From positions 1,302,001 to 1,366,000 of the forward strand of contig NZ_CP027860.1 in the NCBI RefSeq assembly GCF_003015185.1: a stretch of 64,000 nucleotides of DNA, read 5' to 3'. Numbering within the stretch: position 1 is the stretch's first letter; every line of letters begins with the position of its first letter. The DNA is from Ahniella affigens. Lineage in GTDB: Bacteria; Pseudomonadota; Gammaproteobacteria; Xanthomonadales; Ahniellaceae. The translations under genes were made by a program, and so were the position numbers. The notes beneath the pieces are model-generated. The model had not been told where the DNA came from, ran no database searches, and saw nothing but the letters and a program-made list of their open reading frames with translations. Positions 38,671-61,503 of the stretch are shown piece by piece.

Positions 38671-40022
38671 ATACTGAAAAACCTCGCATGACCCTGTCGT
38701 TGAAGAAAGAGAAGCCGGCAGGGCCGATCATCGAAGAACGCATCCAAAAAGTGCTGGCTCAGGCGGGCCTCGGCTCCCGCCGCACCATTGAAGAACGCGT
38801 CGCAGCGGGGGAAATCCGCATCAACGGCAACAATGCCGCCATCGGCAACAGCGTCAAGACGGGCGATCGCGTCGAAATCGACGGCAAGGCCTTCATGGCC
38901 ACGGTCACGCCCGTTGATGACATTCATTTGTTGCTCTATCACAAGCCGGAAGGCGAGATCAGCACGACCGAAGATCCGGAAGGCCGCCGTACCGTGTACG
39001 AGCGCATGCCGCGTCTGAAGAACACGCGCTGGATCTCGATCGGTCGTCTGGACATGAACACCACCGGCCTGCTGTTGATGACCACCGATGGTGAATTGGC
39101 CAACGCGATGATGCACCCGTCGCGCGAACTGGAACGCGAGTACGTCTGCCGTGTGCATGGGCAGGTGACCGAAGCCATGCTCGACAAGCTCCGCCAAGGC
39201 GTTGAGCTCGAAGATGGTCTGGCCAAGTTTGATGAACTGCACGTGATCAATCTCGGCGATAGTCACAGCTGGTTCCGCGTGATCATCAAGGAAGGCCGTA
39301 ATCGCGAAGTTCGCCGAATGTGGGAAGCCGTGGGCGTTGAAGTCAGTCGCCTGAAGCGCATCCGCTACGGCAAGATCGAACTGCCCCGCGAGCTCCGCCG
39401 CGGCCATTTCCGCGCGATGTCGCTTGATGATGTCCGCGCGTTGCGCGAGGAACTTGGCCTCCAACCGATTCCGGAATCGCTGACCTTGCAGCCCGTGATT
39501 GGGGTGCGACGCGCGTCGAAGGTATTGAACGAATATCGCCCTGAAGGCAAGAGCGAGAGCTACAGCGCCGGCCGTGCCGATGAAGCCCGGGAACTGCGCG
39601 CATTCGATCGCGTTGATGAATTAAAGCGGCCTGGCAAGCGACCGGTTGGCAAGAAGAAGCCGTTCAGCAAGAACAAGCGCGGACCCGGCCAGCCCGTCGA
39701 TCCGAACAGCTTCCGGAGTTTCGGCGATCGCGATGGCAATCGCATGCCGGGCAATCGCAAGCCTGGCGGCAAGGGTCCAGGTAAGGGTCCGGGCAAGGGT
39801 CCGGGCGCAGGTCCGGGCGCAGGTCCGAAGGGACCGGGCAGAGGCGGTCCTGCTGGCAGCAAGGGCCCACGCAAGCCGCGCGAGTTTGTAGGCCCGATGG
39901 ATTCCAACCAGTTTGCCGAACGCCGACCACCGCGTGGTGGCAATGGCAATGGCAATCGCGGTCCAGGCGGTCCAGGCGGCCCACGCGGCCCGCGTGGTCC
40001 GCGCGGCCCGATGGGCATGTAA
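38667..40022 (+). CDS. rluB: 23S rRNA pseudouridine synthase B with collagen-like tail
   Basis: 451 residues. An S4 RNA-binding domain (EERIQKVLAQAGLGSRRTIE) is followed by the RsuA-type synthase domain with GRLDMNTTGLLLMTTDGEL containing the catalytic Asp and the KEGRNREVRRMW motif. RluB modifies helix 89 of 23S rRNA (position 2605 in E. coli). The last 150 residues are Gly/Pro/Lys/Arg-rich, with GKGPGKGP and GPRGPRGP tandem repeats, probably disordered and RNA-binding. Third gene of the scpA-scpB-rluB operon. Confidence 0.94.
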   Translation: MNTEKPRMTLSLKKEKPAGPIIEERIQKVLAQAGLGSRRTIEERVAAGEIRINGNNAAIGNSVKTGDRVEIDGKAFMATVTPVDDIHLLLYHKPEGEISTTEDPEGRRTVYERMPRLKNTRWISIGRLDMNTTGLLLMTTDGELANAMMHPSRELEREYVCRVHGQVTEAMLDKLRQGVELEDGLAKFDELHVINLGDSHSWFRVIIKEGRNREVRRMWEAVGVEVSRLKRIRYGKIELPRELRRGHFRAMSLDDVRALREELGLQPIPESLTLQPVIGVRRASKVLNEYRPEGKSESYSAGRADEARELRAFDRVDELKRPGKRPVGKKKPFSKNKRGPGQPVDPNSFRSFGDRDGNRMPGNRKPGGKGPGKGPGKGPGAGPGAGPKGPGRGGPAGSKGPRKPREFVGPMDSNQFAERRPPRGGNGNGNRGPGGPGGPRGPRGPRGPMGM

Positions 40023-55052: not shown

Positions 55053-58000
55053 TCATTGTTGACGGGGTTTCTCGGTCAGCCCGGTGTAACGCAGCACACG
55101 GTCGATTTCAGCTTCCCGTGTGCCCGCATCCAGTTGCTCGCGCACTGTGTCCATCGTCAGACCCGACTCCTTCACCGCTGCAGCAATCTTGGGCCCCCAA
55201 GACCGAAAGCGGAGTTCGCCCATTCGCCGTTTCAGGACCGTCAGAGATGCCAAAGCGACGAGTTCGATGGTCTGCTGAATATCCCTCTGAACCATGGTCG
55301 GATCAGGGTTTAGCAGTGATTCCCGCGATAGGCCTGCTTCAACGCGAATGGCATTGGCAAGCCGCTTGGCATCGCGTGGCGTCTCGATGGGCAGCAACCG
55401 AAACCACCTGCCATAAGCCTCCCGCAAGTTGACGGGATCCTTGAGCTTCTGGGTGCTCAGCCAATAGACCAGCGCCAAACCAAATAGGGCAAACGGAATC
55501 GCCGCAATCATCCAGACGGATCGCGTTATCGGGAGCGCGTCGATCGACCTGTCCGGCACGTTGAAGCCGCCGCTGCGCTGAACGGGCGGACTAGGTAGCG
55601 CTTCAGGTTGCATATTGGGCGTCTGCTGAGGAGCAATAGATGGTGGCGTTGCGTCAGATTGCAGCTTGGCAGGCGCTTCGGCTGCTAGCGTTTCTGGCCG
55701 CACCTGATATTCGTGTCGATCGAGGTTTGTCCACCAGACAATCGCCACTGAAGTCGCTAGGAACAAGGGTCCAGCCCATTCAAAGCACTGACGCAATAGA
55801 CCCCGATGTCGATAAAGCAAATTCCGAACAACCGCAACGCGATCTCGCCAAGTCCCGGGTTCTGCTGACTGAACTGCGGGCGCGGCCTCTTCAACCACCT
55901 TCGCCGCACTTGCCAAGGGCATGGCGTACACCACATGAATGAGCTTTTGCAGGTAACGCCTTGCGTGCCGGACTTGCGCTTCCCTGAGGGCTTCAGCGTC
56001 TGCGGATCCGTACTTGGCCTTGACTTCCTCTACAAATTGGGGCGCGAGGGTATGCACGACACGCTCATAGTCCATGCCGACGATGTAATAGCCGGCTCGG
56101 TGATCGGTACTTAGGAAGTTCAAGCATTCCAGGAACTCTAATGTGCGCTTGCCATCGAGGCGATCCAAGTCATCGAAGAAGATCAGGAGCGGCCGCCGTT
56201 GCATATGGCGGGCGAGCTCAGCGAGGCCTTGGGCAAATCGATGGCGCAGGCCTGGATCGCCTTCTGGCATGCCGCTAAAGCTGCTTCGGAGTCGTGCGAG
56301 CCACGTTCGTGAGTCACCCGGTAGTGCCCTCAATTGCGGCAGAATCGTCAGCATCAACACGAGTAAGCCCACAACACTCGACAGTTCCAGTCCGTATCCA
56401 GCGGACAGTTTTGCTCCCTGGTGGGAAAGGCTGGCAACACCGGCCTGCCAGCCCTCTAGTCGATACGCGTCATAGCGGTCTGGGCAGGCAGTTGTTCCGG
56501 TCCAGCAGGATTGCGCGCGCGTCAGCCAGTCGATACCTTGATGAAACTCGGCACATGACAACTGTTTGCCAACCCCAGCGTCAGGCCGGGTCCGAGCGCT
56601 GCACGGTGAGTCTTTGTGCAATTCGGCCAACAAGTCTTCCAATTGCTGAAATTGACGTCCCCACACAGGGCGAAGCAACGCCTGGACGACCTCGTGTTGG
56701 GATGGTGGATCTGAGTTCGCCGGCGTGTTGGTTGCCGCAATTTCGGCAGGCTCTGTTGAAGCGAGCCGGGTGTCGATGGATAACGTCTCTGCCGCATTCA
56801 GATCGAACCCGTGGAACTTGCTCAGGCCATCCAGCCAATCCGTGTTGACGACAAACCGACGGCGCTTGCCGGCGTCCGACGCGGTTTCGAAATCTCGCCA
56901 GAACTGTTTGCCGGAATCGACGATCGGCGCGAACCAGGAGTCGCCTGATGACAAACGCAGCGGATAAAGGCTGACAACAAGGATCGCTAGTGCCAAAGCC
57001 AGCAATGCCGCCCAAGTTCCGAGCCGTCTTACTGCAAGCGTCGTGCGAAGCAAGAAACCGCTGGAACACCACCAAGGTGGCACGCCGTCACGTCGAATCG
57101 CGCGCACAAGATTCGTGTAAAGCTGCGCCTCATCCTGCTGATGCCAGAGGTTGATCCAAATAGGGCGAAATCCATCTCGGCGCATTTCGTTCGCTAGAAG
57201 ATTCATCAGGGAGGACTTGCCGGATCCCCATGGCCCGCTAATTGCGAGCGTCAGCGGCGGGTTCGTGCCCGCGTGGTTGAAAAACGCCGCGAGGCGCTCC
57301 GCGTGGCGTTGCGCCTGAAGGCGGTCTTGATCGGGCTTGGCGATGGCTGCATCTGACGCGACTTCGCCACCGCGTTCATCGCGCTGTGGCACAAGGCTGA
57401 GACTTATTGCAATGATCAGCATCAGAGCCGATACGGCCAGCAGCCAATAAGTGGCACTCGGCGGCGTTGAGCGCATTGGTGAGATGGCAGACCAAGACGC
57501 GCCGCCATCCGTGCTCTTGATCATCGTGTAGGGACCAACCGCCCAGCCGCGTTCGGCATCGACAAAGGCCACCGCGGTGAGCGTCGCGTCAGTTCCCGAG
57601 TTCTGTACCGACCAACTCGCCCCCCCATCCCGGGTCGCCACTATCGTGCCCCCGCGACCAACCACCCAACTGCGTTCAGCGTCTGCAAAGGCCACTGCAA
57701 TGAGGTCTGCGTCAGTTCCCGAATTCTTTAACGACCAACTCGCCCCCCCGTCCCGCGTCACCAAGATCGTGCCCTTGTCTCCAATCGCCCATCCCCGTTC
57801 GGTATTCGCAAATGTCACATCAGTGAGCCACTCTTCGGTCTCCGAGGACTGATCCGACCAACTCGAACCGCCATCCTGCGTCGCCAGGATCACACCGTTG
57901 CGGCCGACTGCCCAACCTCGTTTGGCATCGACAAAGGTCAATCCGCTGAGAACAGCAGTGGTCCCCGAGGTCTGAACCGACCAACTCGCCCCGCCGTCCA

Positions 58001-60200
58001 GTGTTGCCAAGATTGTGCCTGCTAAACCAACCGCCCATCCCCGGTCGCGATCCGTAAAAGCCACATCAGTGAGCCACTCGTCGGTCCCCGAAGCCTGAGC
58101 AGACCAACTCGATCCGCCATTCTGTGTCGCCACGATCACACCGTTGCGACCGACTGCCCAACCTCGTTTGGCATCGACAAAGGTCAATCCGTTGAGAATA
58201 GCAGTGGTCCCCGAGGTCTGAACCGACCAACTCGCCCCGCCGTCGAGTGTTGCCAAGATTGTGCCTGCTTCACCAACCGCCCAGCCGCGTTCGGCATCGG
58301 CAAAGGCTACCTCGTAGATCAACGAGTCGGTGCCGGAAGCTGGATCCAACCAGCTCGTCCCGCCATCCTTCGTCGCCAAAATCGTTCCGTTGCTACCCGC
58401 CGCCCAACCATGTTTAGCATCGGCAAAGGTCACTGCTTTGAGCCACACTTCCGTCACTGACGGCTGAGCCGACCAACTGGACCCGCCATCCTGCGTCGCC
58501 AAGATCGTGCCGATGCTTCCAACTGCCCACCCACGTTCGGCATCGGCAAAGGCCACAGAAAAGAGCAAGTCTTGGGTACCGGAAGGCTGAACCAACCAAC
58601 TCGAACCGCCATCCTGCGTCGCCACAATCGTGCCGTTGCTGCCAACTGCCCACCCACGTTCGGCATCGACAAAGGCCACCGCATTGAGATCAGCAGCGAT
58701 GCCCGAGTCCTGAATCAACCAACTCGAGCCACCGTCCTGCGTCGCCACGATCGTGCCCTCAACTCCGACCGCCCAGCCCCGCTGATCATCGGCAAAGGCC
58801 AATCCATTGAGCCACGCTTTGGTCCCCGAATCTTGAGCCGACCAACTCGCCCCACCATTCCGCGTCGCCACAATGGTGCCCTCACGACCGACTGCCCAGG
58901 CATGTTCGGCATTGGTAAATGCCAATCCGTTGATCTCCTGATCAGTTCCTGTCGCCTGAACCAACCAATTCGACCCGCCATCCCTCGTTGCCAAAATCGT
59001 TCCGTTGCTACCCGCCGCCCAACCATGTTTAGCATCGGCAAAGGCCACTGCGTTGAGCCACGCTTCCGTCACCGACGGCTGAGCCGACCAACTGGACCCA
59101 CCATCCTGCGTCGCAAAGATGGTGCCGTTGCTACCAACCGCCCAACCGCGTTTGGCATCGGAAAAGGCCACTGAGGAGAAATGACTCTGGGCCCACGAGA
59201 TCTGAACCGACCACCTCGCCCCGCCGTCCTGCGTCGCCACTATCGTGCCGTCGCTCGCGACCGCCCAAACGCGTTTGGCATCGGCAAAAGCCACCGAGGA
59301 GAACGGGTTGCGGGTGCCCGAGGCTTGAGCGGACCACCTCGCGCCGCCATCCTGTGTAGCCGTGATGGTGCCGTTCATACCAACCGCCCAACCGCGACTA
59401 GCATCGAAGAAGGCAACACCTTTGAAGTCCTCCTCGGTTCCGGAAGACTGGACCGACCAACTCGACCCGCCATCCCGCGTCGCCAAAATTGTGCCCCCAG
59501 TTCCAACCGCCCAGCCATTTTCCGCATCGGCAAAGGCCACGGCAGTGAGCGCCGTGTAGGTCTCCGAGTCCTGAGTCGACCAACTAACCCCGCCATCCCG
59601 CGTCACCAAGATCGTGCCTTGAACTCCAACCGCCCAGCCACTTTCGGCATCGACAAAAGACACTGCAGCGAGATCAGCAGTTGTCCGCGAGTCCTGCACC
59701 GACCAACTCAATCCACCATCCCGCGTCGCTACAATCGTGCCCCTGCGACCGACTGCCCAGCCTCGCTTGGCGTCGAAGAACGCCACCGCGTTGAGCCACG
59801 CGTTGGTCCCTGAAGTCTGAACCGACCAACTCGACCCGCCATCTCGCGTCGCCACAATCTTGCCGTCAAACCCAACCGCCCAGGCATTCTCTGCGCCAAC
59901 AGCTGCAAGTCCAGAAATCGTTGCGCCCGCGTACACGCGCCGAACCTTTTTTCCGCGGACAAGTGATAGTCCTTCTGCGCCGGAGATCAATAGGCTCGTA
60001 CTTTCCAATGTGTCGTTCAGGACAACCACGTCAGAAATATCGGCCAACTGGTCCTTGGCCCACCAAGCGTTGTCAACTTGGCGCTCCCATAGCGCAGGTC
60101 GCTCGGGATCCTTCGGCGTGGGCGCAAGCCAGTACAACCCACCCGCTGTAATCATGGTGATGGCGAAAAACACCAAGAGGGCGTTCCGAAGGTTTCGCAT
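55053..60200 (-). CDS. Giant YCF48-repeat / KAP P-loop NTPase membrane fusion protein
   Basis: 1,715 residues from the ATG at 60200, which overlaps the upstream stop (TGATG) and has GGGGAA before it. Layout: membrane helix 7-24; about 20 tandem 41-residue repeats at about 85-905, consensus WAVGxxGTIxATxDGGxSWS, resembling YCF48/BNR propeller blades; a membrane helix at 915-935; Walker A GPWGSGKS at about 988-995; two membrane helices (1058-1081 and 1268-1291); Walker B LLIFFDDLDRL at about 1337-1347; two more helices (1477-1493, 1559-1580); then a soluble tail. Two membrane helices between Walker A and B are characteristic of KAP NTPases (Kidins220/PifA family), some of which belong to phage-defence systems. 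The topology puts the propeller outside and the NTPase inside, so an external signal could drive an NTP-dependent action. Adjacent divergent gene 60700-61503 looks nuclease-like. The function is unknown. Confidence 0.88.
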   Translation of the reverse strand: MRNLRNALLVFFAITMITAGGLYWLAPTPKDPERPALWERQVDNAWWAKDQLADISDVVVLNDTLESTSLLISGAEGLSLVRGKKVRRVYAGATISGLAAVGAENAWAVGFDGKIVATRDGGSSWSVQTSGTNAWLNAVAFFDAKRGWAVGRRGTIVATRDGGLSWSVQDSRTTADLAAVSFVDAESGWAVGVQGTILVTRDGGVSWSTQDSETYTALTAVAFADAENGWAVGTGGTILATRDGGSSWSVQSSGTEEDFKGVAFFDASRGWAVGMNGTITATQDGGARWSAQASGTRNPFSSVAFADAKRVWAVASDGTIVATQDGGARWSVQISWAQSHFSSVAFSDAKRGWAVGSNGTIFATQDGGSSWSAQPSVTEAWLNAVAFADAKHGWAAGSNGTILATRDGGSNWLVQATGTDQEINGLAFTNAEHAWAVGREGTIVATRNGGASWSAQDSGTKAWLNGLAFADDQRGWAVGVEGTIVATQDGGSSWLIQDSGIAADLNAVAFVDAERGWAVGSNGTIVATQDGGSSWLVQPSGTQDLLFSVAFADAERGWAVGSIGTILATQDGGSSWSAQPSVTEVWLKAVTFADAKHGWAAGSNGTILATKDGGTSWLDPASGTDSLIYEVAFADAERGWAVGEAGTILATLDGGASWSVQTSGTTAILNGLTFVDAKRGWAVGRNGVIVATQNGGSSWSAQASGTDEWLTDVAFTDRDRGWAVGLAGTILATLDGGASWSVQTSGTTAVLSGLTFVDAKRGWAVGRNGVILATQDGGSSWSDQSSETEEWLTDVTFANTERGWAIGDKGTILVTRDGGASWSLKNSGTDADLIAVAFADAERSWVVGRGGTIVATRDGGASWSVQNSGTDATLTAVAFVDAERGWAVGPYTMIKSTDGGASWSAISPMRSTPPSATYWLLAVSALMLIIAISLSLVPQRDERGGEVASDAAIAKPDQDRLQAQRHAERLAAFFNHAGTNPPLTLAISGPWGSGKSSLMNLLANEMRRDGFRPIWINLWHQQDEAQLYTNLVRAIRRDGVPPWWCSSGFLLRTTLAVRRLGTWAALLALALAILVVSLYPLRLSSGDSWFAPIVDSGKQFWRDFETASDAGKRRRFVVNTDWLDGLSKFHGFDLNAAETLSIDTRLASTEPAEIAATNTPANSDPPSQHEVVQALLRPVWGRQFQQLEDLLAELHKDSPCSARTRPDAGVGKQLSCAEFHQGIDWLTRAQSCWTGTTACPDRYDAYRLEGWQAGVASLSHQGAKLSAGYGLELSSVVGLLVLMLTILPQLRALPGDSRTWLARLRSSFSGMPEGDPGLRHRFAQGLAELARHMQRRPLLIFFDDLDRLDGKRTLEFLECLNFLSTDHRAGYYIVGMDYERVVHTLAPQFVEEVKAKYGSADAEALREAQVRHARRYLQKLIHVVYAMPLASAAKVVEEAAPAVQSAEPGTWRDRVAVVRNLLYRHRGLLRQCFEWAGPLFLATSVAIVWWTNLDRHEYQVRPETLAAEAPAKLQSDATPPSIAPQQTPNMQPEALPSPPVQRSGGFNVPDRSIDALPITRSVWMIAAIPFALFGLALVYWLSTQKLKDPVNLREAYGRWFRLLPIETPRDAKRLANAIRVEAGLSRESLLNPDPTMVQRDIQQTIELVALASLTVLKRRMGELRFRSWGPKIAAAVKESGLTMDTVREQLDAGTREAEIDRVLRYTGLTEKPRQQ
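57480..59945 (-). repeat. Array of about 20 tandem 123-bp coding repeats
   Basis: Each 123-bp unit encodes one 41-residue propeller-like repeat. I count 20 WAVG-type starts. DNA copies are recent in part: a two-unit block at about 57804-58049 is nearly identical to 58050-58295 (exact offset 246 bp), and the pair of repeats 7-8 resembles pair 12-13. The last unit is degenerate (WAVGPYTMIKSTDGG). Confidence 0.88.
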
Positions 60201-60469
60201 CAGTGATTCCCCGCTGTGCCTGTCGCCAAACTGGACGACAGTGATAGCCATCGAGTACGAGTCGCCACACCGCTGGACTGGTGTATCCAGAAGACCAGAC
60301 CACGCAACTCATTCGTTTCCTTGAACCCAGAGCCGCTCAGCTCGATCGACTCGTTTTCGCGCCACGCCGGGTCAAGACCAGTTGATTGGAGTAACGCGTC
60401 GGTATAAGCGCAGATTGATGGCGTTGCGGTGCGAAAGGAAACAAGAACTAGGAGATACCGGTATCGCAT
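60200..60469 (-). CDS. Small secreted protein coupled to the KAP fusion gene
   Basis: 89 residues starting MRYRYLLVLVSFRTATPSICA, which resembles a signal peptide, with a mature part of about 68 residues (ESIELSGSGF, NELRGLVFWIHQ). GGGG lies upstream at a usable distance. Its stop overlaps the start of the KAP gene (TGATG), so it is probably translated first and coupled. The frame extends upstream to 60631. No domain recognised; it may be a partner, a leader, or only a coupling ORF. Confidence 0.5.
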   Translation of the reverse strand: MRYRYLLVLVSFRTATPSICAYTDALLQSTGLDPAWRENESIELSGSGFKETNELRGLVFWIHQSSGVATRTRWLSLSSSLATGTAGNH

Positions 60470-60699: not shown

Positions 60700-61503
60700 A
60701 TGAGCAGAGCAACTGCAGATGCGTTGATCCGAAACCTCAAGTTGCTTAACACAAAAGAGCGAGATCATCTGATGCGACTGGCCTATCTTGGTCAGAGCAC
60801 CGACTATTCGACGGCATCGGTGTTCCTTTCGGCCGAGCTAGACCAGTGCCTACGCGAACTGGGTTTGGGGCTCTCATCCCATGCACGGTGCGTCTTTGCC
60901 GGCATGGACTACCACTTGGATTGGCTGTTCGCGGCCGCCTGGCTGGCCATGAAGTCGTCCTCCTGGTCGCCTCCGGAAGCGATTCCGATGATCCCGATAG
61001 AACCGTATAAGGCAGTTGAGGGTATCAAGGCGATATACACCGACTTTCGTCCCATTACCGGCTCCCAAGAGGACATCGACCTTGTGGTGGTCTACGACGA
61101 CGGCACCAAGCTCACACTCCTCTTTGTCGAGGCAAAAGGCAGTGCGGCGTTTAATTGGGTGCAGTTGGCTCGGAAGCTAATCCGACTGGATCGCATACTT
61201 GTCAAATCCAAAATGGCTGCTCAGGGCAACGGTTTATTTGACTTCCACATGATCCTGGCAGCGCCAAAAGGGAAGAAACCGAAGTCTGACGTCTGCCTTG
61301 AGTACGTACGAAGCAAGATTGAAAAGGCTGGCCAACCCGAAGTGTATGGACCCATGTTGAAGGCACTGAACCGTCATGCGAGCGGGCTTGGTCGACGCTT
61401 GCAATTCCTGCCCATCTCGGGCTTCCCTGAGCAAACGTACGCCGTCAGGCGCGTGCCCAAAACGGGCGAGGAAACTCATTGGACTCTAAAAAAGCGCCCA
61501 TAA
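60700..61503 (+). CDS. Putative PD-(D/E)XK nuclease-like protein, divergent from KAP gene
   Basis: 267 residues with GAGG before the ATG. No known family recognised, but residues 124-166 read as a restriction-like core: D127 (EDIDLVVVYDD), then E144-x-K146 (LLFVEAKG), followed by a helix with Q155 (NWVQLARKLIRLDRIL), the arrangement of PD-(D/E)XK nucleases. Residues 60-90 carry MDYHLDWLFAAAWL. The gene sits 230 bp from the coupled small ORF/KAP unit on the opposite strand, so a shared regulatory region is plausible. Nuclease activity is inferred from motif only; the same core also occurs in non-catalytic proteins. Confidence 0.6.
   Translation: MSRATADALIRNLKLLNTKERDHLMRLAYLGQSTDYSTASVFLSAELDQCLRELGLGLSSHARCVFAGMDYHLDWLFAAAWLAMKSSSWSPPEAIPMIPIEPYKAVEGIKAIYTDFRPITGSQEDIDLVVVYDDGTKLTLLFVEAKGSAAFNWVQLARKLIRLDRILVKSKMAAQGNGLFDFHMILAAPKGKKPKSDVCLEYVRSKIEKAGQPEVYGPMLKALNRHASGLGRRLQFLPISGFPEQTYAVRRVPKTGEETHWTLKKRP

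Follow-up and report, generated by a model that had tools for sequence, protein, structure and literature searches.

Among KAP P-loop NTPases, PifA is known to block phage, and QatA is an anti-phage (Qat) protein by NCBIfam naming. Tmn, also a KAP NTPase, blocks phages by a mechanism that is called unexplored, and the accessible part of its source describes it with 'two unusual transmembrane domains' (PMC11846954). Some targets of diversity-generating retroelements use KAP NTPases as well, and no propeller-KAP fusion appears in the accessible part of that report (PMC10907252). On the side of repeats, a role in the innate immunity of bacteria has been proposed for highly repetitive propellers, and the 14-blade propeller of a STAND ATPase protein forms two seven-bladed rings; in the main text no word begins with 'KAP' or 'YCF48' (PMC9218822). 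Is there any protein that joins such a propeller with a KAP NTPase? Here we analyse a gene in a stretch of 64,000 nucleotides from Ahniella affigens (contig NZ_CP027860.1, positions 1,302,001 to 1,366,000), hereafter the window, whose product carries tandem YCF48-like propeller blades and a KAP NTPase on one chain.

The minus-strand frame is open from 55053 to 60251. The start is likely the ATG at 60200, which is preceded by a GGGGAA sequence and gives 1,715 aa in a single open reading frame (ORF), 55053-60200 (-). Both halves of the product pass their Pfam cut-offs, PSII_BNR (PF14870) with 377.4 bits against 27 (6.6e-113, many repeats adding up) and KAP_NTPase (PF07693) with 55.2 bits against 20 (8.4e-15). 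The NCBIfam Ycf48 equivalog cut-off is passed too (448 against 326), yet through summed repeats. About 20 repeats and a KAP NTPase on one chain had been proposed by an earlier sequence-only reading of the window, and 20 blades were indeed counted. They carry a DGGxxW-type Asp box, and the last is one residue shorter (40) than the period. At the DNA level, Tandem Repeats Finder recovers the same array with period 123 and 19.0 copies (57534-59866). Hydropathy gives five maxima in the protein (Table 1). The maxima of transmembrane helices (TM) 3 and 4 fall between Walker A and Walker B, as expected of a KAP protein and as the earlier reading had stated, with a loop of about 190 aa between them. 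A second TM pair probably follows Walker B, made up of TM5 near residue 1490, which is below the hydropathy threshold, and the last maximum; such a pair is likewise seen in the relatives G508 and L103. The topology suggested by hydropathy fits the earlier proposal that the repeats lie outside the inner membrane and the NTPase in the cytoplasm. The propeller-KAP architecture is far beyond chance, and we hold the architecture and the family with high confidence. In the window genome (6.12 Mb), the sole other match to the protein is weak and covers a few blades. The genome holds two further KAP-family genes (G000:C1:5158679 and G000:C1:5461612). A promoter scan found no site.

What kind of NTPase is joined to the blades? 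With the Pfam cut-off passed and Walker A and Walker B intact, P-loop lysine (K995) included, the window protein is a KAP P-loop NTPase and would presumably hydrolyse nucleoside triphosphates. In an alignment of 35 rows, the columns of the P-loop, DDLDR and TPRxxKR are invariant with the window included, and so are P1608, R1609, K1612, N1616 and R1619. At 34 of the 39 columns that are invariant in the other 34 rows, the window has the same letter. Kinship with known anti-phage KAP proteins was seen in all 28 KAP parts scanned, which match the QatA and PifA models. For the window protein, PADLOC gives PifA at 1.4e-16 and QatA at 7.2e-7, the best stretch of the PifA match being residues 947-1035 only (model positions 5-96 of 720). 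The protein is not QatA itself, a membership which the earlier reading had touched upon: the NCBIfam equivalog scores 31.9 bits against a cut-off of 600. Assignment to the STAND NTPases was also rejected, with nSTAND3, the sole STAND family listed, at 16.9 bits against 27.2. A profile of the KAP parts matched no PDB chain.

How often does the fusion occur? Among 151 near relatives the KAP half matched two, namely the window itself and one ORF without blades, and among 369 genomes of the class it matched four. One of these four, G508 (L014:5932-10101), has the same layout as the window protein, with 31% identity in the joint local alignment and in the KAP half alike. An alignment of the window and G508 proteins was searched against 84,980 species genomes and gave 278 stretches encoding relatives of the NTPase half. 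The family counts rest on the best 80 of these 278 stretches plus four viral-contig loci, 84 loci in all; this number includes repeat rows (L077 = L076, L104 = L103, L075 = the G508 contig, and L085, a near-copy of L084). Found in this way by the NTPase half, 60 of the 84 loci have at least three blades detected by hidden Markov model (HMM). The motif [DE]DLDR follows the blades in 56 of these 60; L066 is cut by a contig end, and L072, L048 and L093 are without the motif as written. By tree labels the blade-bearing rows come from about 11 phyla: Pseudomonadota, Acidobacteriota, Verrucomicrobiota, Planctomycetota, Spirochaetota, Myxococcota, Thermodesulfobacteriota, Gemmatimonadota, Armatimonadota, Tectimicrobiota and KSB1. 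Within the class, a KAP profile of 28 rows matched 14 of the 369 genomes, and whole-profile matches were found in at least two (G508 at 1e-188 and the window at 1e-146; next best 1e-17), a lower bound since at most three candidates were scored per genome. No blades were seen by eye in G450 and G195, two of the other 12 matching genomes. No description of a propeller-KAP fusion was found in the open-access literature searched, as the earlier reading had supposed; however, the fusion is not unique, and it forms a recurrent family rather than a one-off.

Is there any rule in the number of blades? Firm blade counts cluster at 7 and 14. The strict set for counting, with regular spacing and clear TM flanks, has 16 rows (14 without the repeats L077 and L104). 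Nine rows have 14 blades and four have 7, while 6, 13 and 20 (the window) occur once each, and each of these three exceptions is a multiple of seven minus one. L096 has 12 blades, and the Rhodovarius gene in L025, a compact relative, has seven. In the remaining rows, gaps or inserts interrupt the series of detected blades, and the counts (5 to 14 detected) are provisional. Near sister loci are about one ring apart, with 14 blades in L037 against 7 in L053 for a Gallionella pair, and 14 in L026 against 6 in L029. The leader of the window protein is 68 aa long, against 31-42 aa in regular 14-blade relatives, which leaves room for a worn 21st blade. From the spacing and the family counts, three rings of seven are perhaps the natural reading of the window ectodomain; the number 3 x 7 stays conditional because the 21st blade is not detected by the HMM.

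A seven-bladed ring is seen in a structure model. An alignment useful for all blades was unattainable, as 14-blade relatives align to blades 7-20 and seven-blade pieces to one stretch. The alignment-based model covers residues 577-1715 with 35 rows, and the relatives were trimmed to start at the seventh-last blade. Overall it has a mean predicted local distance difference test (pLDDT) of 70 and a predicted TM-score (pTM) of 0.51. Blades 14-20 (model residues 46-332) close as a seven-bladed ring with four strands per blade, so that the fold modelling put forward in the sequence-only reading gives a propeller in the 35-row model, though not in a single-sequence one. Blade 13 lies outside the modelled ring with pLDDT of about 30, and model residues 3-38 are without any other row. 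Its exclusion is weak evidence because the relatives are cut at the seventh-last blade and almost no rows lie over blade 13; the tight closure at seven is the stronger part of the ring evidence. In fold comparison, which covered the propeller only, the modelled ring resembles 7bie, a symmetric seven-blade protein (TMt 0.86, Z 33.5), 2ymu (Z 33.0), which we take to belong to the STAND-WRAP line of work (Npun_R6612), and Ycf48 2xbg (TMt 0.74), with Ycf48-D1 peptide complexes among the best solved relatives. By sequence, the nearest solved relatives are Ycf48/HCF136 (phmmer 3e-26 and 5e-26). In the NTPase the model is confident around Walker A and Walker B (block means about 79-96), and the inserted loops are not confident.

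How was such an array made? Window blades 8/13 and 15/17 are recent copies, 92-94% identical in DNA. Duplication of whole seven-blade modules was considered as a recent source of 14 blades, and it was not supported. In the window, the mean likeness of blades at a distance of seven does not exceed that of other pairs, and in relatives the difference is small in either direction. With no clear excess of likeness at this distance, a simple recent copying of entire rings did not take place; single-blade copying over short distances is seen in place of module duplication. At a mark of 60% median identity, similar to the one used for highly repetitive propellers (PMC9218822), 14 of 53 rows qualify (repeats included), and the window has 59% by our own identity measure.

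The ectodomain varies in kind as well as in number of blades. L068 (4156-8112) has WD40 repeats before the same KAP core (Pfam 2.5e-68), with TM1 not seen by hydropathy, and in L078 WD40 repeats were read by eye on the same core with TM1 ahead. L065 has a PASTA domain on the core, just below the Pfam cut-off (23.0 against 23.2 bits), while L061 and L055 have the core without a recognised ectodomain. The sensor is thus modular, with different ectodomains on one KAP core, and a sensor role fits such swappable ectodomains. The d-a and b-c loops of a blade share one propeller face. In the window (18 blades used) their entropy is 1.73 bits, against 0.92 for a-b and c-d (permutation p 0.026). The same order holds in 11 of 11 proteins that we chose, and in each of them d-a by itself is also above a-b by itself. 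Of 19 close pairs chosen (some with non-blade ectodomains) 18 were scored, and in all 18 the ectodomains are less identical than the KAP cores. For example, in the Gallionella pair (14 against 7 blades) the identity is 49% in the ectodomain and 89% in the KAP core, and the difference at fourfold sites is 0.61 and 0.26, respectively. Exchange of the ectodomain is clear at synonymous sites only in this pair. The contrast between L084 and L085 of Siccirubricoccus was rejected as an exchange, L085 being a near-identical, frameshifted copy at a contig end. A motif Y-x-R-x-PAPW was seen after the last blade, just before TM2, in seven relatives inspected, and the window is without it.

A member of the family is also carried by a phage. 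Two IMG/VR contigs, 3300014489_000164 and 3300037366_000107, are 99.76% identical over 14.7 kb and carry an intact 14-blade member of 1,308 aa. The copy sits in a head-tail operon, between a tail gene (phrog 290, 4e-11) and a tape measure gene (phrog 12506, 4.5e-8) on the same strand, and is flanked by unassigned ORFs on both sides. A head maturation protease (4e-68) and a major head protein (6e-79) are encoded upstream of it. On the KAP tree it groups with Roseomonadaceae rows at high support (100/99), and its placement inside the group is weak (93/43). Three viral scans gave no full-length match besides the same two contigs; the matches L109-L111 were weak. With the whole phage-borne protein as query, only the propeller and TM2 parts are covered among the matches listed (all 17 phage records and 40 of the 77 plasmid records); the window KAP had no match in plasmid and phage records. 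One plasmid hit (H30) spans YCF48 and MMPL features in a single match. The phage contig also encodes a UvrD-type helicase (L107:16008-18311, -) on the opposite strand, past the tape measure gene, which scores 7e-31 with PADLOC NERD+UvrD, 1e-29 with GajB and 1e-39 with the PHROG DNA helicase.

No fixed partner gene was seen at the bacterial loci, and they do not point to defence islands. Neighbours were clustered for 58 blade-bearing loci that span 6 kb or more, with the gene itself excluded. The widest cluster, of ABC/ATPase type, occurs at 6 of the 58 loci and contains two near-duplicate pairs, and a sensor-kinase-like cluster occurs at 4. Three adjacent membrane-protein families beside the fusion are common to three tubeworm endosymbionts and L056. 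This trio, the only multi-gene neighbourhood noticed beyond near-duplicates, stands on opposite sides of the fusion gene in L038 (10202-13309) and L056 (2-4487). In the window, the divergent neighbour at 60700-61503 (+), of 267 aa, was found in its own genome only (1 of 185 searched) and is taken as an orphan. It has no match in Pfam (E 0.01), PADLOC or NCBIfam (E 0.1); by eye, a D...ExK stretch (DLVVVYDDGTKLTLLFVEAK) is reminiscent of PD-(D/E)XK nucleases. In three relatives, neither this gene nor the propeller-KAP gene occurs next to ccoG within the regions retrieved. Elsewhere in the window genome, a separate YCF48-like protein (L020:5248-6456, G000) stands directly before an RND-type transporter gene, by eye. 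Short tandem repeats of 9 to 24 bases lie at window positions 39735-40009 within a plus-strand ORF.

Table 1. Position of the putative receptor gene and its parts in the window
Feature	Coordinates	Strand	Basis
Propeller-KAP receptor gene, 1,715 aa (P0001)	55053..60200	-	ORF, Pfam
TM1, residues 4-22 (N-terminus in, ectodomain out)	60135..60191	-	Topology inferred from hydropathy
Possible degenerate 21st blade, residues 48-84	59949..60059	-	Spacing only; blade HMM without support
20 clear Asp-box/YCF48 blades, residues 85-903, period 41 aa	57492..59948	-	HMM/repeat analysis
Blades 14-20, one closed seven-bladed ring, pLDDT about 92-98	57477..58349	-	Model
TM2, residues 919-937	57390..57446	-	Hydropathy
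Walker A GPWGSGKSS, residues 989-997	57210..57236	-	Pfam, alignment
TM3, residues 1060-1078, inserted after Walker A	56967..57023	-	Hydropathy
TM4, residues 1269-1287, before Walker B	56340..56396	-	Hydropathy
Walker B LLIFFDDLDR, residues 1338-1347 (DDLDR from 1343)	56160..56189	-	Pfam, alignment
Hydropathy maximum, residues 1555-1573, read as TM6	55482..55538	-	Hydropathy, model
C-terminal TPRxxKR motif region, conserved, residues 1607-1619	55344..55382	-	35-row alignment

Then what might the protein do? Our tentative reading is that it is a stand-alone transmembrane receptor NTPase, whose most likely output is a block to phage or to some other mobile element. We have moderate confidence in the receptor mode of action, and by analogy phage exclusion or defence is the leading hypothesis for the role. 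A receptor signalling phage had been suggested by the sequence-only reading. The sensor part of this suggestion agrees with the swappable ectodomains; we only infer the sensing of phage, because it rests on PifA/QatA-type KAP kinship and one phage-borne copy, and the bacterial loci are without a defence-island link. In such a receptor the blades would form a series of seven-bladed propellers, perhaps three of them, on the outer side of the inner membrane, and the variable blade loops would bind a protein, peptide or glycan ligand. Binding would be passed via TM2 and the KAP hairpins and switch an ATP-driven rearrangement or oligomerisation of the KAP domain. The output would be at the membrane and would most likely block the phage or mobile element, as is known for PifA and reported for Tmn and QatA. 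A wider scenario is possible but doubtful. It takes the family as a widespread class of transmembrane immune receptors, in which multi-ring propellers outside recognise products of phages or other elements and the KAP NTPase blocks them from inside. Their repertoire would evolve by blade amplification, ring-sized gain and loss, and ectodomain exchange, and phages would capture the receptor as a moron, perhaps excluding competitors. If phage is what the family senses, bacteria would have receptor-type immunity at their envelope; otherwise it would still be an unassigned family of receptor-like ATPases across many phyla.

Several observations weigh against our reading and should be noticed. The phage evidence is one element seen twice. 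Among 85 near-neighbour proteins (about one per side, hand-picked from the two nearest of at least 100 aa, phage locus excluded), no Pfam or PADLOC family occurs in more than two, and a link to defence islands was not found. Low c-d entropy may be held by the Asp box itself, the loop comparison being made without unrelated propellers. The lower ectodomain identity could also reflect relaxed constraint, and the C-terminal part of these pairs, too, is less conserved than the core. Of six close pairs, five show ectodomain exchange at synonymous sites weakly or not at all. The 21st blade has no support from the blade HMM, ranking 151 of 596 rows, nearly all of them shuffles (220 with a longer cut). 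The window KAP is the most diverged row of the tree, with the longest end branch (2.99), and it deviates at 5 of the 39 otherwise invariant columns (1006, 1016, 1018, 1021 and 1348), residue 1348 being directly after DDLDR; with such a branch and such columns, the window protein may have drifted in function. When AlphaFold was given the complete 893-aa ectodomain as a single sequence, no propeller resulted (pLDDT 54), and the top Foldseek rows for this model are beta-solenoids, none at E 0.001 or better. We count this failed fold neither for nor against a propeller.

Could the protein sense something else? It is rather unlikely, in our view, that it is an envelope sensor unrelated to phage, whose propellers bind a cell-wall fragment, a nutrient or a misfolded periplasmic protein while the KAP domain adjusts a membrane process. 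The near neighbours are ordinary housekeeping genes, three membrane-protein families are common to four loci (three tubeworm endosymbionts and L056), L065 has its PASTA domain just below the Pfam cut-off, and the window KAP is without a plasmid match, all of which such a sensor would explain. It would explain less well the patchy distribution, with the whole KAP profile in at least 2 of the 369 class genomes, the member carried by a phage, and the lack of a regulator or transporter partner common to more than 6 of the 58 loci. Sporadic occurrence also speaks against a machine for membrane-protein assembly or quality control, which we think unlikely. Its propellers would hold a client as Ycf48 holds the D1 peptide, and KAP would drive assembly. 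The idea draws on Ycf48/HCF136 and the Ycf48-D1 peptide complexes as best solved propeller relatives, on the free YCF48-like protein noticed by eye beside an RND-type transporter gene in the window genome, and on plasmid hit H30 with its YCF48 and MMPL features. But no conserved client gene adjoins the fusion, and the ectodomain is both more changeable than the KAP core and replaced by WD40 in some relatives.

Might fast-evolving propellers rather serve in adhesion, kin recognition or contact-dependent competition? A receptor of this sort would be in keeping with the variability of the loops and the turnover of blades, and self-recognition is mentioned as a possible use of repetitive propellers in the accessible part of one source (PMC9218822). 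The two TM helices, however, hold the protein at the inner membrane, no outer-membrane anchor was recognised, and the neighbour scans gave no toxin or immunity partner, so we regard this role as improbable. Very improbable, finally, is a decaying repeat gene without function, shaped by selfish blade amplification. It would account for the recent blade copies 8/13 and 15/17 (92-94% DNA identity) and for the long branch of the window KAP with its differences at 5 of 39 columns, but 1,715 codons are open, and the residues of the P-loop, DDLDR and TPRxxKR are kept.

How does a putative transmembrane receptor NTPase of this kind compare with known systems? Like the window protein, Tmn, PifA and QatA are KAP-family P-loop NTPases, and Tmn, compared by description, likewise has TM domains; in the accessible parts of their sources no propeller ectodomain is mentioned for the three. 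The photosystem II assembly factor Ycf48/HCF136 has Asp-box blades and a seven-bladed ring, as modelled for the window protein. However, the solved Ycf48 structures are single propellers of about 300 residues, while the window protein has 20 blades, two flanking TM helices and a fused ATPase. The STAND-WRAP protein Npun_R6612, as far as its source is accessible, joins WD40-superfamily blades to a STAND ATPase, whereas the window protein joins Asp-box blades to KAP and spans the membrane; we know of no membrane anchors in STAND-WRAP proteins. Kidins220/ARMS shares with the window protein a KAP NTPase with TM helices and recognition repeats, but its repeats are ankyrin repeats and it is an animal neurotrophin scaffold. 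The repeat sensors of bacterial immune NTPases are, to our knowledge, intracellular; in the present family the repeats share one chain with the ATPase and appear to be placed outside the inner membrane, in many phyla and with ring-sized steps in blade number.

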